A DNA stretch of 64,000 nucleotides from Pseudobutyrivibrio ruminis CF1b. GTDB lineage: Bacteria; Bacillota; Clostridia; Lachnospirales; Lachnospiraceae. The translations under genes and the position numbers were made by a program. Shown one piece after another: positions 20,400 to 38,714 of the stretch. Numbering within the stretch: position 1 is the stretch's first letter; each line of letters begins with the position of its first letter. The notes beneath the pieces were generated by a model, which was given only the letters and a program-made list of their open reading frames with translations, searched no databases and was not told the origin of the DNA. The DNA lies in assembly GCF_000424005.1 (NCBI RefSeq), contig NZ_AUJB01000012.1, positions 1-64,000 of the forward strand, read 5' to 3'.

Positions 20400-20428
20400 T
20401 TATTTTATCCTCCTAGTTTACTAATTGA

Positions 20429-20515
20429 AGAAGTGCCATTAAAAATTGCCTTCGGCAATGGGCACTTCTGGGTAATAAGGAATCCTCCCACTAATAGTGG
20501 GTCCCTCCTTATTAC
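20429..20515. repeat. Double-hairpin element copy 1, abutting the oadB stop codon
   Basis: Hairpin one pairs AGAAGTGCC with GGCACTTCT around ATTGCCTTCGGCAAT. Hairpin two pairs GTAATAAGG (20472-20480) with CCTTATTAC (20507-20515) around an inner hairpin CCCACTAATAGTGGG. The outer end contains the oadB stop codon. The same layout with other paired bases occurs at 38631-38714. It lies between oadB and the oadA-like gene and could set their relative expression. Confidence 0.75.
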
Positions 20516-21660
20516 ACGCCAAATATTGCCATGAATACACCGGCTGCAACGGCAGTTCCGATAACACCAGCAACGTTTGGTCCCATAGCATGCATAAGAA
20601 GGAAGTTTGTAGGATCCTCTTCTGCACCGACCTTTTGTGAAACACGTGCTGCCATAGGAACAGCAGAAACACCAGCTGAACCGATAAGTGGATTAATCTT
20701 ACCACCAGTAATGTGGCAAAGAATCTTACCAAATAATACACCGGCTGCTGTACCGAAAACGAAAGCAACAAGACCAAGAACTACGATCTTGAGTGTAGCT
20801 GCATTTAAGAATGCCTCTGCAGATGTTGAAGCACCTACTGATGTACCAAGAAGAATAACTACGATGTACATAAGAGCATTAGATGCAGTCTCTGTAAGCT
20901 GATTTACAACACCAGACTCCTTGAAAAGGTTACCAAGCATAAGCATACCAACAAGTGGAGCTGTTGTAGGTAAGATCAAACATACAATAATAGTAACAAC
21001 GATTGGGAAGAGAATCTTCTCAAGTTTTGATACTGGGCGAAGCTGAGCCATCTTAATAGAACGCTCCTGCTTTGTTGTAAGTGCCTTCATGATTGGAGGC
21101 TGAATAATTGGAACCAATGACATATAAGAATATGCTGCAACGGCAATAGGTCCCATAAGTGCTGATTGTCCTAATTTACCAGCAAGGAAAATAGATGTAG
21201 GTCCGTCTGCACCACCGATGATAGATACTGCAGCAGCTGCCTGATCTGAGAATCCAAGAAGGATTGCAAGAAGGTAAGCTGTGAAAATACCAATCTGTGC
21301 AGCAGCACCAAGCCAGAAGCTGATTGGATTTGCAATAAGTGGACCGAAATCTGTCATAGCTCCAACACCCATGAAAATAAGTGATGGAAGAATTGAATAC
21401 TCATCAAGAGTATAGAAATAATAAAGCAAGCCGCCTACTCCATTGGAGGTTTCCTCTGGAGATGCAATGATGTCAGGGTAAATGTTAACCAACAACATAC
21501 CAAATGCAATAGGTAATAAAAGAAGTGGTTCGTATCCCTTTTTAATTGCAAGGTAAAGGAAAACACAGGCAACCGCTATCATGACAAAGTTACCCCAGGT
21601 CAGATTGAAAAATGCAGTCTGATGAGCCAGGTTTAACAATGTCTCTCCAACGTAACTCAT
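20512..21660 (-). CDS. oadB: Sodium-ion-translocating decarboxylase beta subunit
   Basis: The 382-residue membrane protein is the ion-pumping subunit of the oxaloacetate / methylmalonyl-CoA / glutaconyl-CoA decarboxylase family. It has about ten hydrophobic segments, the conserved re-entrant block GGADGPTSIFLAGKLG with the key aspartate, the region YSYMSLVPIIQPPIMKAL, and GSAGVSAVPMAARVSQKVG near the C-terminus. It decarboxylates carboxybiotin and exports Na+. The subunit cannot by itself show which acid is used, so the symbol is generic. It starts 14 bases after the biotin carrier gene. Confidence 0.94.
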   Translation of the reverse strand: MSYVGETLLNLAHQTAFFNLTWGNFVMIAVACVFLYLAIKKGYEPLLLLPIAFGMLLVNIYPDIIASPEETSNGVGGLLYYFYTLDEYSILPSLIFMGVGAMTDFGPLIANPISFWLGAAAQIGIFTAYLLAILLGFSDQAAAAVSIIGGADGPTSIFLAGKLGQSALMGPIAVAAYSYMSLVPIIQPPIMKALTTKQERSIKMAQLRPVSKLEKILFPIVVTIIVCLILPTTAPLVGMLMLGNLFKESGVVNQLTETASNALMYIVVILLGTSVGASTSAEAFLNAATLKIVVLGLVAFVFGTAAGVLFGKILCHITGGKINPLIGSAGVSAVPMAARVSQKVGAEEDPTNFLLMHAMGPNVAGVIGTAVAAGVFMAIFGV

Positions 21661-21674
21661 GTGTAATCCTCCTA

Positions 21675-22034
21675 TTAGTTCATAGTTGCGAGTAATGCGC
21701 CAGCTTCAACCTGCTGACCTTCGTTGCAGTTGATTGATGCAACAGTACCATCCTGAGGTGCAACAACAGGTGTCTCCATCTTCATAACCTCAAGAACAAC
21801 AACAGGGTCACCCTTCTTTACAGAAGTGCCTGCAGCAGCTGCAATCTTAACAACCTTACCAGCAGCACCTGCCTCAATCTTAACACCACCAGCAGCGCCT
21901 GTAGCAACTGGAGCAGCTGGAGCAGCAGCCTTTGGAGCTGCAGCAGGAGTAACTGGAGAAACGCCAGAGCCTCCCTTATCTTCTACAGTAACATCGTATA
22001 CTGTTCCATTAACAGTGATTGTATAATTTTTCAT
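21675..22034 (-). CDS. Biotin carrier protein (biotinyl/lipoyl domain)
   Basis: This 119-residue protein has an N-terminal segment (MKNYTITVNGTVYDVTVED), an alanine/proline-rich linker (about residues 27-55) and a biotinyl domain with the attachment motif EVMKMETP, whose lysine is near residue 87. It matches the gamma/1.3S carriers of sodium-pumping decarboxylases and transcarboxylase. It would shuttle CO2 between the carboxyltransferases at 18981 and 22866 and the beta subunit. The alanine linker probably lets the domain swing. Confidence 0.95.
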   Translation of the reverse strand: MKNYTITVNGTVYDVTVEDKGGSGVSPVTPAAAPKAAAPAAPVATGAAGGVKIEAGAAGKVVKIAAAAGTSVKKGDPVVVLEVMKMETPVVAPQDGTVASINCNEGQQVEAGALLATMN

Positions 22035-22052
22035 GGATATTTCCTCCTAAGT

Positions 22053-22847
22053 CTAAAATCTTTTCTTGATGGAACGTACTACAAATGAATCTGTAGAAGC
22101 TCCTGTGCTTGCAGCGATTGCTGCAGCAATAACAGCAACAAGCTGTAAATCGTCTGTCTCGTTCTTTGCGGATGTAGCAACTGGTGCAGCTGCAGTAGCA
22201 GCAACAGCCTGTGGCTCTTCCTTCTTTTCCTTTGCTCTCTTCTCGAGCTTAGGTATAATCTCGAAGCACTTGATTACACCAGACATAACAACAAGCATCG
22301 CAAATACAATAAGGATACCCATTACTGTATTAAGTGCTGCCTTCTGCATTGTCTCACCTAATGTGTAAACTGGCTCAATATCAACTGCTGTAGGACCAGC
22401 ATCAACATCGTTTGCATTGTAAACGAATGTTGTCTTTAAATCTCTAACTGTAAAATCAGTAATCATTGTGGCTGTGATTGTCTTACCAGACTTCTCAACC
22501 TCAACCTTACCAAAGTCAACAAAATCTCCTACCTTAACATCCTTAATATCTTTGTAGCTATTAAGAAGACTATCGAAACCTACAAAGCTTGTAGATAAGA
22601 ACTTAGGAAGACCAGCTTCTTTTACTGCATCGCCGTACTGGCCAAGGCCATTAGCCATGAAGTACTCAGTAGCTTGTTCATACTCTGCTTCATCTAAGCT
22701 AAGAGCATAATTCATATAGAGCTTTGCGATAGTATCGTAAGCTTCTGTATCGTATCCTCCGTAAGTGTTATCCTTCTTGCCACCACAGGCAACAAGACTA
22801 AGAGCAAGGATTAAGGTAGTGAAAACTACTAAAATTCTTTTTTTCAT
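22053..22847 (-). CDS. OadG-type membrane subunit fused to an extracytoplasmic lipoprotein domain
   Basis: The N-terminus is a lipoprotein signal (MKKRILVVFTTLILALSLVACGG, lipobox LVAC, Cys21). Residues 30-165 form an extracytoplasmic domain of unknown role. A single membrane helix follows (about 172-195, MGILIVFAMLVVMSGVIKCF), then a charged segment and the OadG/delta-like tail ending in VAVIAAAIAASTG and FVVRSIKKRF. Classical OadG is only about 80-100 residues, so the N-terminal part is an addition. OadG-type subunits hold the decarboxylase complex together at the membrane. It sits 18 bases after the carboxyltransferase. Confidence 0.85.
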   Translation of the reverse strand: MKKRILVVFTTLILALSLVACGGKKDNTYGGYDTEAYDTIAKLYMNYALSLDEAEYEQATEYFMANGLGQYGDAVKEAGLPKFLSTSFVGFDSLLNSYKDIKDVKVGDFVDFGKVEVEKSGKTITATMITDFTVRDLKTTFVYNANDVDAGPTAVDIEPVYTLGETMQKAALNTVMGILIVFAMLVVMSGVIKCFEIIPKLEKRAKEKKEEPQAVAATAAAPVATSAKNETDDLQLVAVIAAAIAASTGASTDSFVVRSIKKRF

Positions 22848-22865
22848 AAATTCACCTTCCTGCTC

Positions 22866-24200
22866 TTAAAAGAACATCTCAAATCCTGCAATAATGTATT
22901 TTCTAGCATCTGCTGTAGAAACGATTCTGTCAATGTGACCGTGTGCTGCAGCTGTAAGTGCACTATCCTGAAGCTGAGCATAATCCTTTTCGATAGCAGC
23001 TGCGTCTGTTCCATTTTCGCTTAAGATTCTAGCAGCCTTAGCAGCTTCCATAGCACCAACTGATGCTGTCTCGAAAGCGTAAACTAAATCTGCACCAAGT
23101 GACTTAGAGTTCATAAGAACATATGGAGAACCATAAGCCTGCTTAGTAATAAGATTAATCTTTGGAATACTTGCATCAACAAATCTCTGTGTCATCTGAG
23201 CAAGAGCACGTGGTAAACGCTTCTCCTGACATACACAAGACTTGAATGCAGCTACATTAGTAATAGAAAGAACTGGGATTTCGTACATATCGCAAAGATC
23301 GACAAAATCAGCTGCTTTCTCGCAACCAGCTGCAGAAAGGAAAGCTTCTCCGTCAACTTCTCTATTACCTACTACACCAATTGTTACTCCATCAAGCTTC
23401 ATAAGACCTGTAACCATTTCCTTTGCGAAACCAGCCTTAAGCTCGATAAATTCTCTGTTATCAGCAATCTCTGTAGCAACTGCTGCTGCGTCACCCACCT
23501 TAGACTCGAGACCTTCTGATGCTCTGTTAAGATCATCTGTAGCCTCTGTAATGTCGTTAGGAATCATTGAGATAACCTGTCTCATAGAAGCAACAACCTC
23601 TGAAAGAGATCCGTGCATATCTACTGTACCAGCTTCTTCAAACTGGAATGCTGCTGAAGATGAATCGCACTCTTCTGCTCTGTTGCCTTTAATAGCATCT
23701 GGAGAGTTATAGAAAAGTGAAGCACCATCAACCATGAATGTGAAATCAGCAAGTGAAGGAAGAACTGAAAGTCCACCACCACAATTACCTGCTACACACA
23801 TAAGCTGTGGAATAACACCCTTTACATCAGCTGCTCGCTCGATTACAGAACCAAGAGCTTCAAGAGCATCAAAAGACTCCTGAAGACGAACACCACCACA
23901 ATCGATAAATCCGATGACAGGAGCACCTACTTTAAGTGCCATGTCATAAAGTGACAGAATCTTCTTAGCATGCATCTCACCAATAGTACCGCCCAAAACC
24001 TCGGCATTCTGGCTGAAAACGAACACTAATGTGCCATCCACAAGACCATGACCAATAATAACTCCATCTGATGGTTCTTTCTTTGCATCAAGGTTAAAAT
24101 CTGTGTTGCGTGACATTACTAATGACTGAAGCTCAACAAAGCTGTTGTCATCAAGCAATGCGTTAATTCTAGCCTGAGCTTGACTTAAATCATTACCCAT
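22866..24200 (-). CDS. 12S-like acyl-CoA carboxyltransferase subunit (MmdA-related)
   Basis: The 444-residue protein has the two crotonase-like halves of the acyl-CoA carboxyltransferase family: FVFSQNAEVLGGTIGEMHAKK, PVIGFIDCGGVRLQE and VAGNCGGGLSVLPSL in the first half, and VTIGVVGNREVDGE and LITKQAYGSPYVLM in the second. It is shorter than usual MmdA/PccB (about 510 residues), and several motifs are degenerate, so its acyl-CoA specificity is uncertain. It opens an operon with a biotin carrier, a Na+ pump beta subunit and a 5S-type carboxyltransferase. The start at 24200 has GGAGG upstream. Confidence 0.88.
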   Translation of the reverse strand: MGNDLSQAQARINALLDDNSFVELQSLVMSRNTDFNLDAKKEPSDGVIIGHGLVDGTLVFVFSQNAEVLGGTIGEMHAKKILSLYDMALKVGAPVIGFIDCGGVRLQESFDALEALGSVIERAADVKGVIPQLMCVAGNCGGGLSVLPSLADFTFMVDGASLFYNSPDAIKGNRAEECDSSSAAFQFEEAGTVDMHGSLSEVVASMRQVISMIPNDITEATDDLNRASEGLESKVGDAAAVATEIADNREFIELKAGFAKEMVTGLMKLDGVTIGVVGNREVDGEAFLSAAGCEKAADFVDLCDMYEIPVLSITNVAAFKSCVCQEKRLPRALAQMTQRFVDASIPKINLITKQAYGSPYVLMNSKSLGADLVYAFETASVGAMEAAKAARILSENGTDAAAIEKDYAQLQDSALTAAAHGHIDRIVSTADARKYIIAGFEMFF

Positions 24201-24247
24201 CTCATACCTCCATTTATATAAAATATTTCAAATTTCTCGCAAGTCTA

Positions 24248-24276
24248 ATAATAGAGTATTTTCGTGCCCTTTTCAA
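24248..24276 (-). promoter_or_regulatory. Promoter of the decarboxylase operon
   Basis: On the minus strand TTGAAA (24271-24276) is exactly 17 bases from TATTAT (24248-24253). It lies about 48 bases before the first gene and is one of the best promoter matches in the window. Confidence 0.7.
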
Positions 24277-24288
24277 CGTAAATACGTT
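24275..24288. promoter_or_regulatory. Perfect 14-bp palindrome at the -35 box, possible operator
   Basis: AACGTAAATACGTT is an inverted repeat (AACGTA / TACGTT, 2-base spacer) touching the -35 box of the decarboxylase promoter. The position suits a repressor or activator site. I do not recognise the binding protein. Confidence 0.4.
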
Positions 24289-24301
24289 AAAAAATTGTCA
24301 T

Positions 24302-24333
24302 AAAAAACCGCCCAAAATTTTGGGCGGTTTTTT
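24302..24333 (-). terminator. Rho-independent terminator after scpB
   Basis: A perfect palindrome centred on CCGCCCAAAATTTTGGGCGG, flanked by A-runs and T-runs on both sides, lies 31 bases after the scpB stop. Confidence 0.92.
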
Positions 24334-24363
24334 GTCGATTTTTACTTGATTTTTTTAATTATT

Positions 24364-24936
24364 TTATATCGTAACTTCAACGTTATTTGCTTCGTTTTCT
24401 GCCTCGATTTTAAACTCCTCAATCTGAGTCTGTGAAAGTTCTGGAAGTTCTTCGATAGAGCTTACACCAAATGAACGTAAGAACTCTTCTGTAGTACCAA
24501 AAAGCATTGGTCTACCTGGTGCATCAAGACGTCCAAGCTCAGCACATAAGCCAAATTCAACAAGCTTTGAAACGGCGAAATCACAGGAAACTCCTCTGAT
24601 TTTCTCGATTTCTGATTTTGTGATTGGCTGCTTGTAAGCAATAATTGAAAGTGTCTCAAGGAGAACATCAGTCAATACGTATTTACGTGGCTGCTTTGCA
24701 ATTCTGATAAGGTATTCGTAAATCTCTGGATTAGTGCACATCTGATATGCTCCATCAATCTCAGTGATTGTGATACCGCGATTGTCAGCAGCGTATGATT
24801 CCTTAAGGGAATTGATAGCTTCTACAACCTGCTTTTCTTCTATCTCAAGAGCCTTTGCAATCTTGGAAGCCTCAACTGTGCCACCCATTGCAAACAAAAT
24901 GCCCTCAACTATATTTTCAATCTCTTTTAATTCCAT
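24364..24936 (-). CDS. scpB: Segregation and condensation protein ScpB
   Basis: ScpB forms the kleisin-associated part of the SMC-ScpAB condensin that organises and segregates chromosomes. The 190-residue product shows two winged-helix domains with the family blocks IVEGILFAMGGTVEASKIA and LETLSIIAYKQPITKSEIEKIRGV, followed by an acidic tail. GGAGTAAATAATT precedes ATG 24936. It lies 20 bases after scpA, the usual partner order. Confidence 0.96.
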   Translation of the reverse strand: MELKEIENIVEGILFAMGGTVEASKIAKALEIEEKQVVEAINSLKESYAADNRGITITEIDGAYQMCTNPEIYEYLIRIAKQPRKYVLTDVLLETLSIIAYKQPITKSEIEKIRGVSCDFAVSKLVEFGLCAELGRLDAPGRPMLFGTTEEFLRSFGVSSIEELPELSQTQIEEFKIEAENEANNVEVTI

Positions 24937-24956
24937 AATTATTTACTCCGTCGATA

Positions 24957-25712
24957 TTAGGCTGCGATTCTGGATTCAATCATAATATCAGTGAAGGTAT
25001 CCTCCTGTGTGATATTAATCTGACCAGCCTTCATCATCTCTAAAATACAAAGGAATGTAACGATAACCTCTGTCTTTGAATGTGCGGCTTCAAGAAGATT
25101 TCTGAAACTGAAGGTATTATGTGCCTTCGCAAATGCGATAGTCCACTCCATCTTCTGCTCAAGGGAAACCTCTTCCTTTTTAATCTTTCCAAATGTGGAA
25201 CGAATTGGATCCCTTCTATTGTCCTGACGCTTAAGCACCTGCTGGAAAATATCATTAAGCTTGTTAAGTGTAAGGTCTGCCATAAGCTCTTCAAGGTCAA
25301 CTGGCTGCTGATACTTTAACACCTCATCAGGGATGGTAGGCTCCTTGTAGAAAACAAGGCTGGCATCCAGCTGTCTGTCCCTAAGCTGATAAGAGATAGT
25401 CTTGTACATCTTGTACTCCAACAGTTGCTGAACAAGCTCTGCACGTGGATCCTCTGGCTCCTCGCCCTCTTCAGTCTTCTCTTCCTGTGGTAATAACATA
25501 CGGCTCTTGATATCAAGAAGTGTGGTAGCCATAAGAAGGAACTCTGACATAACATCCAAATCGCTGTTATCCATAGCACGTACATACTCCATGTACTGGT
25601 CTGTGATTTCCACAATAGGGATGTCGTAAATATCAACTTTGTTCTTATCAATCAAATGTAATAGTAAATCTAAAGGCCCTTCGAAAACCTGTAGTTTAAC
25701 ATTCATTTCCAT
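24957..25712 (-). CDS. scpA: Segregation and condensation protein ScpA
   Basis: ScpA is the kleisin that bridges SMC heads. The 251-residue product has the characteristic start VKLQVFEGPLDLLLHLIDKNKVDIYDIPIVEIT, the block LDVMSEFLLMATTLLDIKSRMLLP and a C-terminal winged helix (VIVTFLCILEMMKAGQINITQ). AGGAGAAAATGT precedes ATG 25712. It is the first gene of a two-gene unit with scpB, separated from icd by a terminator. Confidence 0.96.
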   Translation of the reverse strand: MEMNVKLQVFEGPLDLLLHLIDKNKVDIYDIPIVEITDQYMEYVRAMDNSDLDVMSEFLLMATTLLDIKSRMLLPQEEKTEEGEEPEDPRAELVQQLLEYKMYKTISYQLRDRQLDASLVFYKEPTIPDEVLKYQQPVDLEELMADLTLNKLNDIFQQVLKRQDNRRDPIRSTFGKIKKEEVSLEQKMEWTIAFAKAHNTFSFRNLLEAAHSKTEVIVTFLCILEMMKAGQINITQEDTFTDIMIESRIAA

Positions 25713-25733
25713 ACATTTTCTCCTAATAAAGGC

Positions 25734-25768
25734 AAAAAAATAATCTCATGCCTATAACATGAGATTAT
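25734..25768 (-). terminator. Rho-independent terminator after icd
   Basis: ATAATCTCAT / ATGAGATTAT form a perfect 10-bp stem with a 9-base loop, followed on the minus strand by seven T. Confidence 0.85.
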
Positions 25769-25832
25769 TATAATAGACTATATAGTACAAGTCAATAAAC
25801 GAAACCACAAGATTTAGTGTTTTCAGACTATT

Positions 25833-27038
25833 TTAAAGAGATTCGAGAGTTTTACGAATTTCGATGATGAAATCCCTTGAATTAAGGACTGTTGGGTTCT
25901 CAATTGATGTAATGAGAGCCAAATCCTTTGTCATTTTTCCATCCTCGATAGTCTTGATACAAGCCTTCTCAAGCTTGTCTGCGAAAGCTGAGAGCTCAGG
26001 AATGTTATCAAGCTCGCCGCGCTTTCTAAGAGCACCTGTCCAAGCAAAAATTGTAGCTACAGAGTTTGTAGATGTCTCCTCGCCCTTTAAGTGTTTGTAG
26101 TAGTGACGCTGTACTGTTCCGTGAGCAGCCTCGTACTCATAGTAACCAGCCGGGCTAACAAGCACTGATGTCATCATAGCAAGTGAACCAAATGCAGATG
26201 AAATCATATCAGACATAACATCACCATCGTAGTTCTTGCATGCCCAGATGAATCCGCCCTCAGACTTCATAACACGAGCTACTGCATCATCGATAAGTGT
26301 GTAGAAGTACTCGATGCCTGCAGCATCAAATGCATCCTTGTATTCCTTGTCAAAAATCTCCTGGAAAATATCCTTAAATGTATGGTCATACTTCTTAGAA
26401 ATAGTATCCTTTGTAGCAAACCATAAATCCTGCTTTGTATCCAAAGCATATTTAAAACAGCTATGAGCAAAGCTTTCGATTGAATCGTTAAGATTGTGCT
26501 GGCCCTGAACAACGCCTGGTCCGTTGAATGTGTGAACAAGTGCGCGTTCTTCCTTACCATCCTCAGATGTGTAAACAAGCTCAACCTTACCAGCTGCTGG
26601 GATTACCATCTCAGTGTTTTTGTAAACATCACCGTATGCATGACGTGCAATTGTAATAGGCTTCTTCCATGTCTTAACATTTGGGTCGATTCCTTTTACA
26701 ACGATAGGTGCACGGAAAACTGTACCATCAAGGATTGCTCTGATTGTTCCGTTAGGGCTCTTCCACATCTCCTTAAGGTTGTACTCTGTCATGCGTGCTG
26801 CGTTAGGAGTGATTGTGGCACACTTAACAGCAACTCCATATTTCTTTGTAGCCTCTGCAGACTCTACAGTAACCTTGTCATCTGTCTCATTTCTGTGCTC
26901 AAGGCCAAGGTCATAGTACTCAGTCTTTAAATCGATGAAAGGAAGAAGAAGCTCGTCCTTAATCATCTGCCAGAGGATGCGTGTCATCTCATCGCCGTCC
27001 ATCTCTACTAAAGGGGTTGTCATTTGAATTTTGCTCAT
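25833..27038 (-). CDS. icd: NADP-dependent isocitrate dehydrogenase
   Basis: This enzyme oxidises isocitrate to 2-oxoglutarate and CO2, making NADPH and feeding glutamate synthesis. The 401-residue protein is of the dimeric type otherwise common in eukaryotes: [11 protein letters not shown] at the N-terminus, [36 protein letters not shown], the metal-binding block [12 protein letters not shown] and the NADP site [27 protein letters not shown] precedes ATG 27038. It is probably monocistronic, lying between the leuS hairpin and its own terminator. Confidence 0.96.
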
Positions 27039-27072
27039 AACGTATTCTCCTTATCATATAACTTTTATAGAA

Positions 27073-27097
27073 TAAGCCTGCCGCGATGGCAGGCTTA
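27073..27097 (-). terminator. Hairpin after leuS, probable terminator
   Basis: AAGCCTGCC and GGCAGGCTT form a GC-rich 9- to 10-bp stem just past the leuS stop. The T-run on the minus strand is interrupted (TTATTCTAT), so termination may be partial. Confidence 0.6.
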
Positions 27098-27101
27098 AGT
27101 C

Positions 27102-29507: not shown

Positions 29508-29550
29508 TTTTCTCACCTCGTATATATAACTATTCGAAATTATAATAAAA

Positions 29551-29581
29551 GCTGTGTAGTTTTGCAATAAAACTACACAGC
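29551..29581 (-). terminator. Hairpin terminator between the 112-residue gene and leuS
   Basis: GCTGTGTAGTTTT / AAAACTACACAGC form a 13-bp stem with a 5-base loop; TTTTATTATAATTT follows on the minus strand. Confidence 0.75.
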
Positions 29582-29614
29582 AAAAATGGTTTTTATTGAA
29601 AATTCTGCGGTGAA

Positions 29615-29953: not shown

Positions 29954-30073
29954 TTACATTATCCTCTCATTCTAAAAAGTGCTTTGATATAGTAGCACGT
30001 CTTCCCCTCAGACTCTACATGCAAGTTTTTTAGAATGTCCGTTAAGTAACCGAATTTGAAAAATTATAGAAAA

Positions 30074-30105
30074 AAAGACTGATGAAGCAAGCCTCATCAG
30101 TCTTT
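30074..30105 (-). terminator. Rho-independent terminator after EF-G-like gene
   Basis: AAAGACTGATGA and TCATCAGTCTTT form a perfect 12-bp stem with an 8-base loop; seven T follow on the minus strand. Confidence 0.88.
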
Positions 30106-30127
30106 CTAATCTACTTATTTTAACTGT

Positions 30128-32224
30128 TTACTCCTCATCCACATCCTTAATCTTATTAGCACGTCGCTCAACTTCCTTAGCCTGAACATCTGAAGGAACC
30201 TGCTCGTAACGGGCTAATTCATAAGAGAATGTACCGTAGCCACCAGTCATAGAACGAAGTGTTGTGTCATAGCCATAAAGCTCAGCCATAGGAACTTCTG
30301 CCATAACCTCAGTCTTTCCACCAGTTTCTGTAGGGTTCATACCAAGAACACGTCCACGTCTCTTGTTCAAATCACCCATTACATCACCAGTGTAGCTATC
30401 TGGAACTACAACCTTAAGTGTCTCGATAGGCTCAAGAAGGATTGGATTAGCCTTCATGATGCCATCCTTGAAAGCGCCCTTAGCTGCAACCTTGAATGCC
30501 ATTTCTGAAGAATCAACTGGATGATAGCTTCCATCATAAAGATTAGCATGTACACCAACTACAGGATAAGCTGCAAGTGGTCCTGCAAGAACAGCTTCTG
30601 ACAGTCCCTTCTCAACAGCTGGGAAGTAGTTCTTTGGAACTGCACCACCAACTACAGACTCTGTAAAGTTGTAATGCTCTTCCATATTTCCAGAAGGCTC
30701 AAATGTCATTTTAACGTGACCATACTGACCATGACCACCAGTCTGCTTCTTATACTTATACTCGACATCAGCCTTTCCTCTAATTGTCTCTTTAAATGCA
30801 ATCTTCGGCTGGCTAAGCTCGATGTCTACTTTGTACTTCTCATTAAGCTTCTGAACAAGCATATCAATATGTCTGTCGCCGATACCATAAAGAAGTGACT
30901 GGCTGTTCTCGCCGTCGTTGACAGCCTTGATTGTTAAGTCTTCAGCACAAAGCTTAGAAAGTGCCTGTGCAATTTTATCTTCATCTCCCTTGTTTTTAGC
31001 CTTATATCTCTTGTATGTATAAGGAACTGAAAGTGGTGTTCTGATGTAAAGGATTGGATTAGCCTTTGTAGAAAGGGAATCTGTTGTAGCAACCTTCTGA
31101 AGCTTAGAAAGTGCACAGATATCTCCAGCATGTACCTCGGGAACTTCCTCAGCCTTGCTTCCTGTTAAGATGTAAAGCTTACCAATCTTCTCCTCAGACT
31201 CTTTATGCTTGTTATAAAGCAAATCATCTGTCTTAAGAACACCTGAATTAACCTTGATAAGAGAATACTTACCAACGAATGGATCAACGATTGTCTTAAA
31301 TACATAAGCACTCTTTGGCTTAGAGAAGTCATAGTTTGCTTCGTAAACTTCATTCGTATTTGCGTTAATTCCTGTAATCTTGCAATCAGCTGGTGAAGGA
31401 AGATACTTAACAACGTCAGTAAGCATTGTATACTGGCCTCTGTTAGTAAGGTTTGAACCCATCATAACAGGAACAATATCACCAGATGCTACGTTTACAC
31501 GAAGTGCCTGACGAATCTCATCCTCTGAGAATTCTTCACCACCGAAATATCTATCCATGAATTCCTCTGATGTCTCAGCAACTGATTCCATTAAAGCTTC
31601 ACGATATTTCTCCAAATATTCCTGACTGTAATCAGGTACATCAGAGTGTTCAACTGTTCCATCAGCCTTCCAGCGCTTACCTATCTGCTGAATAACATTT
31701 ACATAGCCAACAAACTCTCCATTTTCTCTTATTGGAAGATGGAAAGGAGCAATCTTCTTTCCGTACAAACTCTGAAGCTCCTCAACGATTTCTCTATAGC
31801 TGGCATCATCTATATCCATGTCAGTTACAAATACCATTCTAGGAAGATTAAATTTGTCGCACATCTCCCAAGCTCTCTTTGTACCAACCTCAATTCCGCT
31901 TTTACCTGAAATAACAATAATAGCCGCATCAGCTGCAGAAACAGCCTCCTCAGCTTCTCCGACGAAATCAAAATAACCTGGTGTGTCTAGGAAATTAATC
32001 TTAGTATCGCCCCAAATGATTGGAACTAAAGAAGTGTAGATAGAAAATTTGTTTTTTGTCTCCAGTTTGTCGTAGTCACTAATGGTATTACCAGCCTCGA
32101 TAGTGCCCGGCTTGCTGATCTGACCAGCTAGAAAAGCCATTGATTCGATGAGACTGGTTTTGCCCGCCCCGCTGTGACCAAGCAACACAACGTTCCTGAT
32201 TTTGTCCGTAGTAAATACCTTCAT
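30128..32224 (-). CDS. Elongation factor G-like GTPase with altered G motifs
   Basis: The 698-residue protein has the EF-G layout: G domain, domain II, domain III, domain IV (FTESVVGGAVPKNYFPAVEKG) and C-terminal domain V. The P-loop GHSGAGKTSL is intact. The G3 motif is FLDTPGYFDF, so the histidine that activates water in EF-G (DTPGH) is tyrosine, and the G4 motif NKMD reads TDMD. It is therefore a paralogue, not the main FusA, and may hydrolyse GTP slowly or have another role. GGGAGG precedes ATG 32224. It is divergent from tyrA. Confidence 0.88.
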   Translation of the reverse strand: MKVFTTDKIRNVVLLGHSGAGKTSLIESMAFLAGQISKPGTIEAGNTISDYDKLETKNKFSIYTSLVPIIWGDTKINFLDTPGYFDFVGEAEEAVSAADAAIIVISGKSGIEVGTKRAWEMCDKFNLPRMVFVTDMDIDDASYREIVEELQSLYGKKIAPFHLPIRENGEFVGYVNVIQQIGKRWKADGTVEHSDVPDYSQEYLEKYREALMESVAETSEEFMDRYFGGEEFSEDEIRQALRVNVASGDIVPVMMGSNLTNRGQYTMLTDVVKYLPSPADCKITGINANTNEVYEANYDFSKPKSAYVFKTIVDPFVGKYSLIKVNSGVLKTDDLLYNKHKESEEKIGKLYILTGSKAEEVPEVHAGDICALSKLQKVATTDSLSTKANPILYIRTPLSVPYTYKRYKAKNKGDEDKIAQALSKLCAEDLTIKAVNDGENSQSLLYGIGDRHIDMLVQKLNEKYKVDIELSQPKIAFKETIRGKADVEYKYKKQTGGHGQYGHVKMTFEPSGNMEEHYNFTESVVGGAVPKNYFPAVEKGLSEAVLAGPLAAYPVVGVHANLYDGSYHPVDSSEMAFKVAAKGAFKDGIMKANPILLEPIETLKVVVPDSYTGDVMGDLNKRRGRVLGMNPTETGGKTEVMAEVPMAELYGYDTTLRSMTGGYGTFSYELARYEQVPSDVQAKEVERRANKIKDVDEE

Positions 32225-32316
32225 GTGTCGTACCTCCCAATAATTTTTCGACGCCTTAACCCCGCCGCGCCGTGATGTTATAAAACTTATATATATTATA
32301 TTTAATATTCAGACTA

Positions 32317-32345
32317 TTTACAACGGATAAATGTGATATTATATA
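32317..32345 (+). promoter_or_regulatory. Promoter of tyrA-aroA
   Basis: TTTACA (32317-32322) and TATATA (32340-32345) are separated by 17 bases, about 55 bases before tyrA. The match is good for a sigma-A promoter. Confidence 0.6.
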
Positions 32346-32399
32346 AATATATTCTCGCTTTAAAGTATTAAAGCATCAAATGTTTTGGGAGACTTAATT

Positions 32400-33500
32400 A
32401 TGAAGACAAAAACTATCGGATTTGTAGGACTTGGACTTATTGGAGGCAGTATCGCAAAAGCGATATTAAACGTATATCCGAATACAAGAATATTAGCAAC
32501 AGCTTCTAGAGAATCTACTATCGAAGCTGCTTTTGAGGAGCGCCTTATCGACAACAATGGCCTTCTCAAAATTCATCAGTTTGGTCAGTGCGACATTATC
32601 TTTCTTTGCAGCCCTGTAAAGATTAACTGCGACTATTTAAGACAGCTTAAAGATGTGGTAAAACCTGACTGCATTATCACAGATGTAGGTTCTGTAAAGG
32701 GCGACATCACTGCAGTTGCCAGAGAGCTTGGCATGACAAATCAGTTTATCGGTGGTCATCCAATGACAGGTTCAGAGCTTACAGGTCTCGAGCATTCCAA
32801 TGCTCTTCTTCTTGAAAATGCTTACTACATTCTCACTGCAGATTCTGAAATGAATCCAGAAACTTACGATGAGTTTGCTTCATATATTGGAAGTCTTGGT
32901 GCTATTCCTATCAAGCTTACACCTGAGGAGCATGACGATGCCACTGCAGCAGTTTCTCATTTGCCACACGTTATCGCAGCTTCCCTTGTAAATCTTGTTC
33001 AGGATACCGATGATGAGCGTTCTATATGCAAGACTATTGCAGCAGGTGGCTTCAAGGACATTACCAGAATCGCATCTGGCTCACCTACCATGTGGCAGCA
33101 CATTTTTCTTAGCAACAGAGATGCTTTGATTAAGCTTTTAGATATTTATAAGGATGAGCTTGAAAGCTTTAGAAATGCCATATTAAAATCAGATGCAGAC
33201 GAACTTTTAAAGCTTTGGACAAAAGCAAAGGATTACAGAGATTCAATTACAATTCCTGACAATGCTTTACTTCGTTTTTACGAATTGTATTGTGATATTG
33301 ATGATAAACCAGGTACACTTGTGGGTGTTCTTCAGTTACTTGCCGATGCAGAAATCAGTGTAAAGAACATCGATATTATCCATAACAGAGAATTCGAGCC
33401 TGGTGTTCTTCGAATCGAATTCTACACTGATGAGGCTATGAAAAATGCCCAGACTATTTTGACACATAATAACTACTACGTAAGACAGAGGACAAACTAA
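32400..33500 (+). CDS. tyrA: Prephenate dehydrogenase with C-terminal ACT domain
   Basis: TyrA converts prephenate to 4-hydroxyphenylpyruvate with NAD(P)+ in tyrosine synthesis. The dinucleotide-binding motif is GFVGLGLIGGSIAKAI (residues 6-21); IITDVGSVKGDI, GGHPMTGSELTG and VSHLPHVIAASL are family blocks. An ACT domain (about 295-366, starting DKPGTLVGVLQLLADAEIS) probably senses tyrosine. ATG 32400 is preceded by GGGAGAC at good spacing; a TTG at 32385 is the alternative. It is followed after one base by aroA, so the two are translated together. Confidence 0.96.
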   Translation: MKTKTIGFVGLGLIGGSIAKAILNVYPNTRILATASRESTIEAAFEERLIDNNGLLKIHQFGQCDIIFLCSPVKINCDYLRQLKDVVKPDCIITDVGSVKGDITAVARELGMTNQFIGGHPMTGSELTGLEHSNALLLENAYYILTADSEMNPETYDEFASYIGSLGAIPIKLTPEEHDDATAAVSHLPHVIAASLVNLVQDTDDERSICKTIAAGGFKDITRIASGSPTMWQHIFLSNRDALIKLLDIYKDELESFRNAILKSDADELLKLWTKAKDYRDSITIPDNALLRFYELYCDIDDKPGTLVGVLQLLADAEISVKNIDIIHNREFEPGVLRIEFYTDEAMKNAQTILTHNNYYVRQRTN

Positions 33501-33501
33501 T

Positions 33502-34782
33502 ATGCCAATCGTAAAAGCCAAAAGTTTAAAAGGAGAAATAAAGGTTCCTGGAGATAAATCCATCAGCCACCGCGGTGTTATGTTCGGTGCCATTTCAGAA
33601 GGTGTTACCGAGCTTACAGGTTTCCTTGACGGCGCTGACTGCCGCTCTACCATCGGCTGCTTCAGAGCCATGGGAATCGATGTAAATCAGGAACATGACC
33701 ATGTAGTGATTCACGGAAAAGGCCTTCATGGACTTTCTGCACCACAGCAGGTTCTTGATGTGGGAAACAGTGGTACCACTACCCGACTTATTTCAGGAAT
33801 TCTTGCTGGCCAATCATTTGTCAGCACATTAAATGGCGATGAATCAATCCAGAAGCGTCCAATGGGCAGAATCATCACTCCTCTCACTCAGATGGGAGCT
33901 TATATTAAATCCGTAAAGAACAATAACTGTGCTCCACTTGAGGTAGGCGGTGTTCCACTTATGCCCCTTCGCTACGATTCACCTGTAGCCAGCGCTCAGG
34001 TAAAATCCTGCGTACTTCTTGCTGGTCTCTATGCAGATGGAGTCACTTCCGTTACAGAGCCTGTTGTATCTCGTAATCACACAGAGCTTATGCTTTCAGG
34101 CTTTGGTGCAGATATCAAGTCAGAAGGACTTACCGCTACTGTTGTAGGCGGTCCTAAGCTTGTTGGCCAGAAAATCGAAGTGCCGGGTGATATTTCATCA
34201 GCAGCATACTTTATCGTGGCTGGTCTCATCTGCCCTAATGCAGATTTATTAATTAAAAACGTAAATACGAATCCAACCAGAGCAGGTATTATAAAAGTTG
34301 CTCAGAACATGGGTGGAAATATTGAACTTGTCAATGAAAGAATTGTAAGCGGTGAGCCTGTAGCCGATATTCACGTCACTACAAGCGACTTACATGGCTG
34401 TGAAGTTTCAGGAGATATCATTCCTACTCTTATCGATGAGCTCCCAGTAATCGCTGTTATGGCTGCCTGCGCATCAGGCACCACTGTTATCAAGGATGCA
34501 GCAGAATTAAAGGTAAAAGAAAGCGACCGTATCGCTACAGTCACTGAGAATCTTAAAAATATGGGTTGTGACATCACTCCTACTGAAGATGGAATGATAA
34601 TCAATGGAGGAATGCCTCTCACCGGCACATTGATTAAGACATACCTGGATCACCGCATTGCAATGTCATTTGCAGTGGCAGGGCTTGTAGCAGATGGTGA
34701 GACCACATTCGACAACGAGGATTGCTGTTGTATTTCATATCCAGATTTCTTTAAAACAATTGGAGCTATCGTAAACCGATAG
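33502..34782 (+). CDS. aroA: 3-phosphoshikimate 1-carboxyvinyltransferase (EPSP synthase)
   Basis: AroA condenses shikimate-3-phosphate with PEP, the sixth shikimate-pathway step. The 426-residue sequence shows KVPGDKSISHRGVMFGAI near the N-terminus, the PEP-binding NSGTTTRLISGILAG, KRPMGRIITPL and the C-terminal TYLDHRIAMSFAVAGL. It resembles the class II enzymes of Gram-positive bacteria. Its ATG follows the tyrA stop by one base. The stop codon lies inside a 10-bp hairpin that probably terminates transcription. Confidence 0.97.
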   Translation: MPIVKAKSLKGEIKVPGDKSISHRGVMFGAISEGVTELTGFLDGADCRSTIGCFRAMGIDVNQEHDHVVIHGKGLHGLSAPQQVLDVGNSGTTTRLISGILAGQSFVSTLNGDESIQKRPMGRIITPLTQMGAYIKSVKNNNCAPLEVGGVPLMPLRYDSPVASAQVKSCVLLAGLYADGVTSVTEPVVSRNHTELMLSGFGADIKSEGLTATVVGGPKLVGQKIEVPGDISSAAYFIVAGLICPNADLLIKNVNTNPTRAGIIKVAQNMGGNIELVNERIVSGEPVADIHVTTSDLHGCEVSGDIIPTLIDELPVIAVMAACASGTTVIKDAAELKVKESDRIATVTENLKNMGCDITPTEDGMIINGGMPLTGTLIKTYLDHRIAMSFAVAGLVADGETTFDNEDCCCISYPDFFKTIGAIVNR

Positions 34783-34786
34783 CTCC
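34762..34786. terminator. Hairpin over aroA stop codon, shared convergent terminator
   Basis: GGAGCTATCG / CGATAGCTCC form a perfect 10-bp stem with a 5-base loop, and the aroA TAG is in the right arm. It is also 6 bases after the convergent GH43 gene. T-runs are short on both sides. Confidence 0.6.
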
Positions 34787-34792
34787 ATAATT

Positions 34793-36298
34793 TTATGTAG
34801 TAAATATTAAATTTCTAAAGTCTGCCATTCCACCAAGCTCTTTGGTGCCATATGAAAATACGCCTATACGATATCCCACAAATACATCAAGAGTAAATGC
34901 CATTTCTAGTGCATCTCCCAACTGAATAAACTCAGAGCCATCTACTGAATAATAGAAATATGCCTTGTCATCATTTTCAAAATCAAAGACTATTCTAAAC
35001 CATACGTTTTCAGCATTAAATCCTTGCAATTCTGAAGCAGCTATCTTCTTTTCCACTCCATCAAATCGCTTAAGTGTAATGAAAAACTCACCATTTTCCT
35101 TTGACACTCCAATGGTACCAAATCTTCCCATGAAAGCTGTAAGGCCGGCATAGTCACCATCCTTAAGTCCTGAGAAATCTCCTTCTATCGTATATACGGA
35201 TTTTGGAGTAACTGTTCTTTCTGTAAGAGTATTTCTTGCATCCATAATAGATGTGGCAAGCTGCATATTCTTAAGTCGTAAATATCCTGGACGTTCTGTA
35301 AATGACCAGCCTTCCTTGATAGGATTGTGATTCCACTGGAACTGCAGAAGCATTTTGTCACTGAAGTGATTGAAAGAATCACTGGTAACTAGTGGTGCTG
35401 TAGGAACCTCATTCATTGGAATATCAAGCTCCTCTGGAGTCTTGCCATCCACACCGATAACTGGCCAGTCATTTTCCCATGTCATTGGAATAAGATAAGG
35501 AATTCTACCTACAGCCCCATGGTCTTGAAACAACATACTGTACCATTTATTATCGTAGCCTTCTATTAGAACACCTTGAGCAATACCTCTATTATTATCC
35601 CCCATATCATCATCGAATATAATTTGTCTTTCAAAAGGGCTTTCTAAGGTTTTTGACCTATAGCAAATTTCTCGTCTTCTGAAATTTCCATTACCTTCTG
35701 ATGGCCATTCAATAAAACAAAGATAGATATATCCATTTCTGACATAAGCTCTGCAGCCTTCACATCTAAGCATGATTCCATCATCTTTTCCAGGAGTGGA
35801 AAACAAAAGCTTTTTTAATCCATCTTCTTTTAAGCCAGTCAAATCTGCATTTAATTCAGCTATAAAAATATCACCATTACCATACACTAAGAAAACTCGA
35901 TTATCCCAGAAAAGGAAGCTCATATCATGAAAGATTCCATCAAGCTCATGCTGCTTCCAAAATGATTTTTCAATATCATCTGTAGAGTATATAAAGGTCT
36001 TTTTCAAATCATTACATACAAACGCAGCGTAAAATATGCCATTGTGGTAAGCAAGTGATGTAGCCCACTGCCCTGCACCATAAGCATTTTTTCCATTCTT
36101 TAAATTGTGAATATCGTTATCTGCAATAGTGTCAAAAATATAAGAGACAATTTCCCAATTCTTTAAGTCTTTAGACCTAAGAATTGGTCCACCTGGCATA
36201 AAAAACATGGTAGTACTTACCATATAGTAATAGCCATTTGCCTTAATTACATCCATATCTGGCATATCCATTTTTAAAACTGGGTTTATAACTTTCAA
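34793..36298 (-). CDS. Glycoside hydrolase family 43 enzyme (beta-xylosidase / arabinofuranosidase type)
   Basis: The N-terminal 300 residues fit the five-bladed GH43 fold: the catalytic-base region MPDMDVIKANGYYYM, the middle acidic block GIFHDMSFLFWDN and EGCRAYVRNGYIYLC with the probable acid glutamate. Residues 310-501 form a concanavalin-like C-terminal domain typical of GH43 xylosidases (TERPGYLRLKN, AGLTAFMGRFGT, GVFSYGTKELG). There is no signal peptide, so it probably acts on imported xylo- or arabinoxylo-oligosaccharides in the cytoplasm. It lies 23 bases after an esterase gene, suggesting joint action on substituted xylan fragments. Confidence 0.9.
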   Translation of the reverse strand: MKVINPVLKMDMPDMDVIKANGYYYMVSTTMFFMPGGPILRSKDLKNWEIVSYIFDTIADNDIHNLKNGKNAYGAGQWATSLAYHNGIFYAAFVCNDLKKTFIYSTDDIEKSFWKQHELDGIFHDMSFLFWDNRVFLVYGNGDIFIAELNADLTGLKEDGLKKLLFSTPGKDDGIMLRCEGCRAYVRNGYIYLCFIEWPSEGNGNFRRREICYRSKTLESPFERQIIFDDDMGDNNRGIAQGVLIEGYDNKWYSMLFQDHGAVGRIPYLIPMTWENDWPVIGVDGKTPEELDIPMNEVPTAPLVTSDSFNHFSDKMLLQFQWNHNPIKEGWSFTERPGYLRLKNMQLATSIMDARNTLTERTVTPKSVYTIEGDFSGLKDGDYAGLTAFMGRFGTIGVSKENGEFFITLKRFDGVEKKIAASELQGFNAENVWFRIVFDFENDDKAYFYYSVDGSEFIQLGDALEMAFTLDVFVGYRIGVFSYGTKELGGMADFRNLIFTT

Positions 36299-36321
36299 AA
36301 TAATTTCTCCTATAAGCTCTT

Positions 36322-37920
36322 CTATCTAGTAAATTTCGAAATAAACTTCCAAGCCTCCTCAATGGAATGCTCGCGACATTCGTGAATCTGGCCACTAACA
36401 CTGCCAAAGGCTGTTCTACATACACCATCTTCGCTATTGTAATAGTTTACAGTTAAAACACTTCCTCTGGAAGGATCTAAAATCTTTTCTACTCTGTCTC
36501 CTGGAACGCCATAAATAGAATCTTTCCAGTTGCTCTTATTAGCATAATCCACATCAAAATTTACTGTGAGCTTATTTACCTTCGCTGCGTATTTGATTCT
36601 ATCAAGAGATGTTTCATCTTGGAATGGGAGTTCTGGAAGTACAGATTCCTCACCACCTGAATAAAACATTGGAACAGATATAGTCATATTCATACGTGGA
36701 TCTCCAAGAGATAAACCAAAAGGATTATCCTTTATAGGGAATAATGCACTGGTAGGCGCAAGTCCAGCAAACACTTCTGGATACTCCTGGAACATATCCC
36801 AAGTTTTTGCACTTCCCATTGAGAATCCAGTAGCGTAAATTCTATGTTCATCAATATCGTATTTACGTTTTAAATCTTCAATAACATCTATGGCCTCTGT
36901 TGGAGTTACATTCTGGTGATTTTCAATACCTACATAGAGGAAGTTAAACTTATGGCAAACCTCCCACCATCCTGAAACAAAAGTAAGATACATAGAAGAA
37001 TCGCCGCCACCATGGAAGCCTACGACAAGTGGAACCGGGCCATTATCAAAAAGTCCCTTGTTGTAATAAACAAAATATCCAACCTTATGCGTTGGCACGT
37101 CTTTATACTTTGCTTTATGGTCAGGTGATGTTTTTACTTCTGTGTAATCTCTTTTTTCTACCATGTTAAGGGCATCAAAATCTGGCTCAAATTCAATCTG
37201 ACCACACCACATTTTGAACTTTCTTACAAAGCTATAAAAATCAGCCTTATAATCGGCTTTTTCCTTAATAAGAAGATTCTCGCAGCCATCAAAGAACTTA
37301 TTGATTTCATCAGGATTATCTACGGATAAAACAGCTATATCCGTTCGCTGTACATCAGGAACAACTGAGAGACCTTCCATAGAAATCATAGCTGGTGTAA
37401 TCTCACCTGGCCCCCAAAGATATTCGCCATTGATTGTTTTTAATAAATGCTTTGCACAATAATCTGCTGACTGTCCAAAGCTATAGATATCAGCTCTAAA
37501 AATAGCGCCGCGAATAAAATACCCCTTAAATTCTTTATCAAAGAAATTAGTGTATTCAACAATACCATCTGAATATATAGGGTCTATTTTTGTCTCTGCT
37601 ATAAGCTCCTGATAAAGAGACACATCTGCTCTGTCCCAGCCGCCTTCACAGGTTGGATAAACAAATAAAACAGTTGAATCGTTAGCAGAAGCAATCGATG
37701 CCAAGCCTGAAGTTTCTGCAAATTCTATTGCTTTTTCTTCTGTTAATCTTTCTTCTTCGAAAACTAAAAGTAATGGAGCTCTAAAGCCATAATTATGAAC
37801 CTCGCCATCAATATCTGTCGTAGGCACATATGCTTTTAAATGAAAATTATTATATGTATGCTCCCAGAACTTACCACCGTTGTCCAACGTTTTTACAACT
37901 GGTCTTGTAAAAATTCCCAT
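36322..37920 (-). CDS. Alpha/beta hydrolase esterase with an additional degenerate N-terminal hydrolase-like half
   Basis: The C-terminal half (about residues 265-532) is an active-looking esterase of the feruloyl-esterase / PHB-depolymerase type, with oxyanion block VGFHGGGDSS and nucleophile elbow ATGFSMGSAKTWD. The N-terminal half resembles a second copy: APLLLVFEEE, VLFVYPTCEGGWDRADV and YSFGQSADYCAKHLL, but its elbow has no clear G-x-S-x-G. The second copy also ends normally. No signal peptide is seen, so it is cytoplasmic and may remove acyl or feruloyl groups for the GH43 partner. AGGGGG precedes ATG 37920 and lies in a hairpin. Confidence 0.82.
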   Translation of the reverse strand: MGIFTRPVVKTLDNGGKFWEHTYNNFHLKAYVPTTDIDGEVHNYGFRAPLLLVFEEERLTEEKAIEFAETSGLASIASANDSTVLFVYPTCEGGWDRADVSLYQELIAETKIDPIYSDGIVEYTNFFDKEFKGYFIRGAIFRADIYSFGQSADYCAKHLLKTINGEYLWGPGEITPAMISMEGLSVVPDVQRTDIAVLSVDNPDEINKFFDGCENLLIKEKADYKADFYSFVRKFKMWCGQIEFEPDFDALNMVEKRDYTEVKTSPDHKAKYKDVPTHKVGYFVYYNKGLFDNGPVPLVVGFHGGGDSSMYLTFVSGWWEVCHKFNFLYVGIENHQNVTPTEAIDVIEDLKRKYDIDEHRIYATGFSMGSAKTWDMFQEYPEVFAGLAPTSALFPIKDNPFGLSLGDPRMNMTISVPMFYSGGEESVLPELPFQDETSLDRIKYAAKVNKLTVNFDVDYANKSNWKDSIYGVPGDRVEKILDPSRGSVLTVNYYNSEDGVCRTAFGSVSGQIHECREHSIEEAWKFISKFTR

Positions 37921-37923
37921 AAA

Positions 37924-37975
37924 AAATCCCCCTTACTAAAATAGATGTTGAATCTATTCTAGCATCCGGGGGATA
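37924..37975 (-). promoter_or_regulatory. Imperfect hairpin masking the esterase ribosome binding site
   Basis: ATCCCCC at one end faces GGGGGAT at the other, and AATAGAT / ATCTATT form the inner stem. On the minus strand the AGGGGG ribosome binding site of the esterase gene is in the paired arm. The inner repeat alone could also be a protein operator. Confidence 0.5.
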
Positions 37976-38016
37976 CTATAAACACCGATAAACTATTAAT
38001 AATAGGGTGTCAAATC

Positions 38017-38523
38017 TTATTTCTTTCCGCAGCAGAACTTGTACTTCTTTCCTGAACCGCATGGACATGGATCGTTACGTCCAACCTTCTTTTCTGTACG
38101 GATGATTGTGTGCATGTTCTTAGCTTCCTTTGTAAGGTTCTTAAGAGTGTCTGCATCAAAAATCTTCTCCCACTGTGGAAGACCGTAAAGCCAGTCAGCC
38201 TTAGCATCAATCATGTTCTTGTAAAGCTTTTCCTTATCGAACTTAAGAGAAACTACTGTATCCTCTTCCATTGTGTCGATTGGGTTTGGCTCAACAAGTG
38301 AATCGTTGATTCCATCAAGGAAACCAACCATTGGCATAACTTCGATCTTATATTTCTCAGCAAGCTCTTTAACTGTTCCCTTAACCTCTGTATCAGGATC
38401 ATCAAGAAGCTGCTCGTAAATGCCCTTCTCTAAAAGAAAATAATTCTGCCAGAATCTCTGTAAATCAGCCTGAGACTGGTTCTGATTGTAGGCAATCTTT
38501 TGCCACTGTTCAAGTAAACTCAT
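38017..38523 (-). CDS. SEC-C motif protein
   Basis: The 168-residue protein ends in a SEC-C zinc motif, [21 protein letters not shown], with four metal ligands (C-x-C and C-C). The same motif ends SecA, where it binds zinc and SecB, but here it is on a small unrelated protein. Residues 1-140 are mostly helical and not recognised ([42 protein letters not shown]). GGAGAGGAATATAAA precedes ATG 38523. The function is unknown; a chaperone-adapter role is possible. Confidence 0.88.
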
Positions 38524-38630
38524 TTTATATTCCTCTCCAATAAATAAATCAATATCGTGGTAAAAACCACCTCGTTTATTTTAACATAAAAATTAACTAT
38601 AAGGTAGATAAAAATCCACAAAAACGGGAA

Positions 38631-38714
38631 AACTCACACCATGCAAATTGCCTCCGGCAATGGTGTGAGTTGTGGCAAACAGGCAACTCCCTTAAAGGGA
38701 ACCCTCCTGTTTGC
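38631..38714. repeat. Double-hairpin element copy 2, abutting the NlpC-gene stop codon
   Basis: AACTCACACC pairs with GGTGTGAGTT around ATTGCCTCCGGCAAT, then GCAAACAGG (38675-38683) pairs with CCTGTTTGC (38706-38714) around TCCCTTAAAGGGA. The last base is in the stop codon of the NlpC/P60 gene. The layout equals that at 20429-20515 although the stem bases differ. Confidence 0.75.

Follow-up and report, generated by a model that had tools for sequence, protein, structure and literature searches.

Among the described repeats of bacterial genomes, those most useful for comparison with the element treated here are the repetitive extragenic palindromes (REP) and bacterial interspersed mosaic elements (BIME), which are palindromes tagged by GTAG or CGTC, the CGTC class likewise lacking a dedicated transposase (PMC3733652). 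In that source the GTAG repeats are assigned to Proteobacteria, Cyanobacteria and Chloroflexi, and the word 'Firmicutes' is absent from its text. Mycobacterial interspersed repetitive units (MIRU) carry an open reading frame (ORF) that couples to the next start codon (PMC12548453), and in runaway-transcription bacteria terminator hairpins lie a few nucleotides past stop codons (PMC7858274); together with PMC2267715, these papers served for comparison. In this report we describe a double-hairpin element present in two copies in a stretch of 64,000 nucleotides of Pseudobutyrivibrio ruminis CF1b (contig NZ_AUJB01000012.1, positions 1 to 64,000; the window in what follows), which a preliminary description, made from the letters of the window, had taken to be either a mobile palindromic repeat or an mRNA processing or stability signal. 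With REP and BIME it shares the nature of dispersed intergenic palindromes that are often paired and for which roles in mRNA stabilisation and termination have been hypothesised (PMC3733652); it differs from REP and the REP-associated tyrosine transposase (RAYT) system in its two unlike hairpins, its tight abutment to stop codons and the lack of a consistent GTAG or CGTC tag. With MIRUs it has in common that short, apparently mobile repeats are set precisely at gene boundaries (PMC12548453), but it adjoins the stop codon of the gene upstream and shows structural covariation. From the terminators of runaway-transcription bacteria, which it resembles in position, it differs in that its GGAGGG-type copies have no U-tract, many are operon-internal, and all belong to one repeat family with conserved loops. 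The element would work most like REP elements and is placed most like MIRUs. By the tests made here it is neither a REP/RAYT element nor a miniature inverted-repeat transposable element (MITE), and the window copies are not plain terminators. We give about even chances to the reading that it is a dispersed element, similar to REP, which has been kept as an mRNA structure at 3' ends or between cistrons and has a host role in RNA.

Both window copies are described on the coding (minus) strand. Each is about 90 nt long and consists of hairpin 1, a three-base linker and hairpin 2. Hairpin 1 is composed of an outer stem, a purine-rich internal loop with the motif AGGAGGG and an inner hairpin, and hairpin 2 of a variable outer stem, a bulge of 6-7 nt and the inner part ATTGCC-GNA-GGCAAT. 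Two covariance models were used, R1 for hairpin 2 and R2 for the full two-hairpin element. The features of the two copies and the adjoining genes are as follows.

20473..20514, minus strand: hairpin 1 of copy 1, outer stem TAATAAGG/CCTTATTA, AGGAGGG on the 5' side
20501-20487, minus strand: inner hairpin of hairpin 1, copy 1, CCCACTATTAGTGGG
20429..20469, minus strand: hairpin 2 of copy 1, outer stem AGAAGTGCC/GGCACTTCT, 7-nt bulge
20459-20445, minus strand: inner part of hairpin 2, copy 1, ATTGCC-GAA-GGCAAT
20422-20472: R1 match over copy 1, E=2.6e-19
38675..38714, minus strand: hairpin 1 of copy 2, outer stem GCAAACAGG/CCTGTTTGC, with AGGAGGG
38699-38689, minus strand: inner hairpin of hairpin 1, copy 2, CCCTTTAAGGG
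38631..38671, minus strand: hairpin 2 of copy 2, outer stem AACTCACACC/GGTGTGAGTT
38661-38647, minus strand: inner part of hairpin 2, copy 2, ATTGCC-GGA-GGCAAT
38625..38630, minus strand: TTCCCG tail 3' of hairpin 2, copy 2, common to many copies (TTCAAT in its place in copy 1)
38625-38674: R1 match over copy 2, E=8.5e-16
20512..21660, minus strand: oadB gene (Pfam OAD_beta), upstream of copy 1
18981..20399, minus strand: oadA-like gene (Pfam PYC_OADA and HMGL-like), downstream of copy 1
38714..39784, minus strand: gene with NlpC/P60 and SH3 domains (Pfam), upstream of copy 2

The contact with the preceding gene is immediate. In copy 1 the oadB stop codon TAA (20514-20512) provides the opening three bases of hairpin 1; in copy 2 the stem of hairpin 1 begins with the last letter, G, of the TAG stop codon (38716-38714) that ends the NlpC/P60 gene. 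The folding energies are -40.6 and -42.0 kcal/mol for copies 1 and 2 (z -5.2 and -5.1), values as low as which were reached by none of 200 shuffles, and the genome contains the exact core ATTGCCNNCGGCAAT 8 times but the reversed control pattern not at all; chance hairpins were rejected on these two grounds. The preliminary description was thus accurate as to the coordinates, the folding and the start within or beside a stop codon. It also placed copy 1 in an operon (oadB to oadA-like), which stands, the oadA-like start codon lying 22 nt past the R1 match; the assignment of copy 2 to the end of a single gene does not, since a same-strand gene starts about 100 nt downstream. Neither copy is followed by the U-tract of an intrinsic terminator.

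The search of the whole genome and the alignment of copies that the preliminary description had proposed recovered a dispersed family. R1 gives 24 matches at E<=10 in this genome, 17 of them at E<=0.01 and 13 below E=1e-6, and in Pseudobutyrivibrio as a whole 28 of 29 genomes have matches at E<=0.01, 309 in total and 2-31 in each of the 28. From these 309, 128 copies were read, namely all 17 of this genome and elsewhere mostly the best-scoring ones, so that diverged copies are under-represented in the counts given below. In a sample of the family Lachnospiraceae, R1 matched 44 of 299 genomes at E<=0.01, Pseudobutyrivibrio included and many of them through MITE copies, and R2 matched 24 of 299 at E<=0.001, 2 belonging to Pseudobutyrivibrio and 22 to other genera. 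Nineteen of these 22 were read, and 15 have a clear GG-type hairpin 1 by eye; of the other four read, two (G180, G136) look like false matches or another kind of element and two (G236, G100) have another hairpin 1. The remaining three of the 22 (G003, G222, G276) represent MITE-like loci. Judged by eye, full elements are present in about 15 other genera of Lachnospiraceae. Outside this family none was found in a class sample of 391 genomes, whose 3 R1 matches (E<=1e-5, stricter filters) all lie within it, and the element family is therefore limited to Lachnospiraceae as far as searched. A named repeat family was not matched either: Rfam gave no match in the window at the gathering score and, at relaxed E, nothing over the element in 8 loci of our own set and 10 loci of other genera, by which identity with a known Rfam family was rejected, and the open-licence papers searched yielded no description of this element. 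Carriage on phages or plasmids is unsupported by queries of IMG/VR (two exact patterns), PLSDB (copy 1) and phage records (copy 2), all without a match.

The MITE copies belong to a distinct element (GTAACTGTTCAG). In many of them hairpin 2 is found again, bulge and tip included, but the MITE has terminal inverted repeats and 8-bp target duplications, whereas the Pseudobutyrivibrio element shows neither. Among the copies in the fetched loci, some of them devoid of hairpin 2, 21 of 26 are flanked by perfect 8-bp duplications. The MITE occurs in high copy number with exchangeable inner modules, one of which is hairpin 2, and its copies range from 40 to 144 bp (L038, L040, L042, L378-L407 and L410-L413, in G222, G250, G276 and other genomes). 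Its GTAA ends and 8-bp duplications are suggestive of IS66; a link to IS66 as the mobiliser is not established, since among the three genomes searched for exact MITE ends (G250, G222, G276) the IS66 transposase (PF03050) was found in G250 alone.

The placement of the copies at gene ends was measurable in 115 of the 128, in which the base of hairpin 1 and an upstream sense frame of >=60 codons could be assigned. In 94 of the 115 the distance from the end of the stop codon to the start of hairpin 1 is between -8 and +11 nt, and 81 of these 94 fall between -4 and +3 nt. By a coarser measure, 93 of 128 copies have a sense stop within 16 nt and 13 of 128 have an antisense stop no more than 16 nt from the opposite end, compared with 4.8% for random points in the same loci. 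Ordinary terminators were found at 15 of 87 reading-frame ends in these loci; their median distance from the stop codon is 15 nt, and 5 of the 15 start in the range -8 to +11 but not one in the range -4 to +3. The element is placed more tightly than the ordinary terminators measured there. Scattering regardless of gene ends, which the preliminary description had named as the outcome speaking against it, is not what the copies show. Of the 17 copies of this genome, 14 begin no more than 12 nt from a stop codon, the exceptions being L012, L025 and L021, of which the last adjoins a tRNA-Leu gene. Among 14 loci of other genera examined, 6 have a copy no more than 1 nt away from a tRNA gene, four in sense just past the tRNA 3' end (L297, L300, L301, L308) and two in antisense against the 5' end (L321, L314), and in Pseudobutyrivibrio L021 and L085 lie antisense near the tRNA 5' end and the hairpin 2 of L164 is followed 5 nt on by tRNA-Leu. 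Since tRNA genes are abutted as well as stop codons, the rule of placement is a position flush with a gene end and not with a stop codon alone. A full element flush with a tRNA gene was also seen at L347.

The stems of both hairpins show strong covariation, as a test already envisaged in the preliminary description revealed. In an alignment of 59 full elements, 22 of 27 pairs vary on both sides with pairing kept, and the covariation score is 0.390 compared with 0.128 after shuffling (reached in 0 of 500) and with 0.116 or less when the partners were slid. For hairpin 2, 13 of 15 pairs vary on both sides with pairing kept among 98 distinct rows fitted to the covariance model, and on four of five measures not one of 500 shuffles reached its values, whereas on the fifth 53 of 500 did. 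An alignment-free exchange of the outer arms of hairpin 2 among 101 distinct pairs gave -15.2 kcal/mol for own and -7.5 kcal/mol for non-cognate partners, the own partner ranking in the top 5% in 60 of 101. Kinship among the copies means that all these numbers overstate the independent events. The compensatory stem changes that characterise a structured RNA are present, and the structure of the element appears to be under selection.

Orthologous loci reveal gain and loss. The NlpC/P60 locus was matched in all 29 Pseudobutyrivibrio genomes and is readable in 28; by eye, the full element is present in 5 (G000, G324, G299, G310, G307) and a remnant in at least 4 (G153, G318, G319, G323), and the remaining genomes are empty or unclear, mostly with a native terminator just past the stop codon. 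At oadB-oadA, 6 of 27 gene-bearing genomes have the full element (G000, G304, G307, G308, G311, G313), with outer stems that differ between genomes and still pair; in G324 a remnant derived from the 3' arm survives, in G317 a short stretch looks like the element's beginning, and the remaining genomes have short spacers. A metagenome-assembled genome (MAG) of Pseudobutyrivibrio ruminis with a 99% identical oadB protein has an empty site. One 49-nt hairpin 2 recurs without change in 7 copies, which lie beside three unrelated genes and in different genomes, and from this we infer a spread of copies from one locus to another. Some copies are arranged in tandem or partly so, at distances of 41-100 nt, namely at L348 (G208 C59), L347 (G220 C110), L112, L114, L123, L083 and L162. 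Several loci call for separate mention: at L348 the final partial unit provides the apparent Shine-Dalgarno sequence of the next gene; at the NlpC/P60 locus of G323 (L271) the remnant TAGCAAACAGGAGG stands immediately 5' of the next gene, and its AGGAGG seems to be the ribosome binding site; and in a wider oadB comparison, in which 37 of 80 loci were read, the oadB-oadA spacer of Lachnospira sp. UBA5912 (L215) holds a different tandem repeat with a similar inner hairpin, ATTGCC-ATA-GGCAAT.

These observations raise the possibility of a purely selfish palindromic repeat of the REP, BIME or MITE kind, which would insert or survive at safe gene ends without a host function. Its presence in nearly all genomes of the genus at patchily occupied loci, the identical hairpin 2 at unrelated genes, the tandem copies and the flush position beside tRNA genes in both orientations are in its favour. 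A consistent target duplication, however, was not found among the 128 copies of the genus: the longest repeat across the element averages 5.09 nt for cognate and 4.83 nt for non-cognate flanks, and repeats of at least 7 nt occur at 18 copies compared with about 9.5 expected, tandem copies and orthologues included. A general target duplication is thus unsupported, the MITE serving as positive control. Flanking direct repeats ending in GGAGG were likewise rejected as a duplication (8.11 cognate and 7.85 non-cognate matches of 14 in 66 copies), and clear direct repeats were seen at tandem or partly tandem copies (L123, L128, L347, L348). A Y1 (RAYT-type) transposase (PF01797, E<=1e-5) is absent from this genome and present in 10 of 29 genomes of the genus. 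Of the 128 copies, 14 have the tag GTAG close to the tail and 9 have it ahead of hairpin 1, and CGTC was found in one copy at each of these positions; in view of the tags and of the transposase, identity with REP/RAYT was rejected. The mobile repeat envisaged in the preliminary description is thus borne out in its dispersal, by the identical hairpin 2 and by the empty sites and remnants at orthologues, but not in a duplication or in a Y1 transposase of this genome. In addition, the sense bias of 93 to 13 and the dependence of hairpin 1 on gene context, described next, suggest selection on RNA, and we regard a selfish repeat devoid of host function as somewhat unlikely.

Hairpin 1 occurs in several types, assigned by pattern rules with some doubtful cases (e.g. 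L015): 64 of the 128 copies are GGAGGG-type, 23 terminator-type with an A-tract/T-tract, and 41 other. A start on the same strand follows the match within 60 nt in 39 of 64 GGAGGG-type but 2 of 23 terminator-type copies (p=1.6e-5, orthologues uncorrected), and with stricter classes and one copy per gene group and type, 20 of 35 GG-type and 2 of 12 terminator-type copies are operon-internal (p=0.02). A family of transcription terminators or attenuators is another explanation to be weighed. The U-tract, present in these 23 of 128 copies, the convergent gene faced by 12 of the 19 terminator-type copies that follow a close stop, and the native NlpC/P60 terminator, which by eye is degenerate in four of the five carriers, would agree with it. 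However, the GGAGGG-type, including the window copies, has no U-tract and frequently precedes a close start; 4 of 8 convergent GG-type copies have a separate downstream terminator; and in G307 the element lies, by eye, between the stop codon and an intact native terminator. As an account of the whole family, termination is very unlikely. Two terminator-type copies on opposite strands, about 760 nt apart (L014 and L018, G000 C2, 122106-122962), flank a divergent gene pair on its outer sides and face outwards.

The upstream genes fall into 55 groups (98 of 128 copies with a stop within 75 nt upstream), in keeping with the earlier statement that the element is not tied to one function. Ten neighbour proteins were assigned by Pfam to the OAD beta subunit, the downstream PYC_OADA, NlpC/P60, an Fe-only hydrogenase, a sigma-70 factor, two ABC permeases, FliE, an FtsX-like permease and a xanthine/uracil permease. 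The internal loop of hairpin 1 (AGGG/AGGA) and the tip of hairpin 2 (ATTGCC-GNA-GGCAAT) are conserved and the outer stems variable, and the GG-type hairpin 1 recurs in other genera, as might be expected of a binding site for an RNA-binding protein or of a regulon signal recognised in trans. Yet the upstream genes are unrelated, presence at orthologues is patchy, and the types of hairpin 1 differ among permease genes that form a single group and have similar C-termini (L013, L074, L077, L117, L136, L142); recognition in trans accordingly has a low probability in our estimation.

The preferred reading, a dispersed element retained as an mRNA structure, would require the following steps. Copies spread and then settle, or are kept, flush with gene ends and mostly in sense orientation, by which the element would be transcribed into the 3' untranslated region or the intercistronic spacer. 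When the last ribosome leaves the stop codon, hairpin 1 may re-form beside it, and both hairpins may then block 3' exonucleases and set the upstream message apart from the downstream one. At operon-internal copies transcription would continue past the element, whereas at operon ends hairpin 1 is often a U-tract terminator. Sense bias, abutment, covariation and the exchange of hairpin 1 with context fit such a role in the transcript, and the mRNA processing or stability signal proposed at the outset is plausible on these grounds.

Several observations weigh against this reading. In most genomes the element is absent at both examined loci, NlpC/P60 and oadB, and is therefore dispensable there. 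In several other genera hairpin 2 forms part of the MITE, which is GTAACTGTTCAGTA-ended and about 133 bp long. The stem of hairpin 2 is kept behind the U-tract of a terminator-type hairpin 1, where hairpin 2 may go untranscribed from the upstream gene, which favours a role of hairpin 2 at the DNA level or in mobility. Antisense copies lie against the tRNA 5' end (L321, L314) and are left unexplained by a function at stop codons. These last three points fit a mobile element that depends on its structure for its own spread. With regard to covariation, the own partner was the best one in only 19 of the 101 arm exchanges, because related copies share stems, and a comparison of G-U with A-C changes between the strands is dominated by one pair and confounded by misalignment.

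A more far-reaching idea, which we consider distinctly unlikely, is that of a docking element which integrates directionally and flush with gene ends, guided by structure, by way of neither a RAYT nor a known DDE transposon and perhaps via RNA or single-stranded DNA, and whose hairpin 1 then swaps between terminator and non-terminator forms according to the operon. If this were true, the host would gain a spreading kit for setting 3' ends and protein ratios. In any case, the element represents a repeat family without a description in the libraries and papers searched, in a family of bacteria abundant in rumen and gut. If it is selfish, the question arises how a repeat without a recognised transposase finds gene ends; if it is functional, it would be a portable intercistronic element, testable at oadB-oadA.

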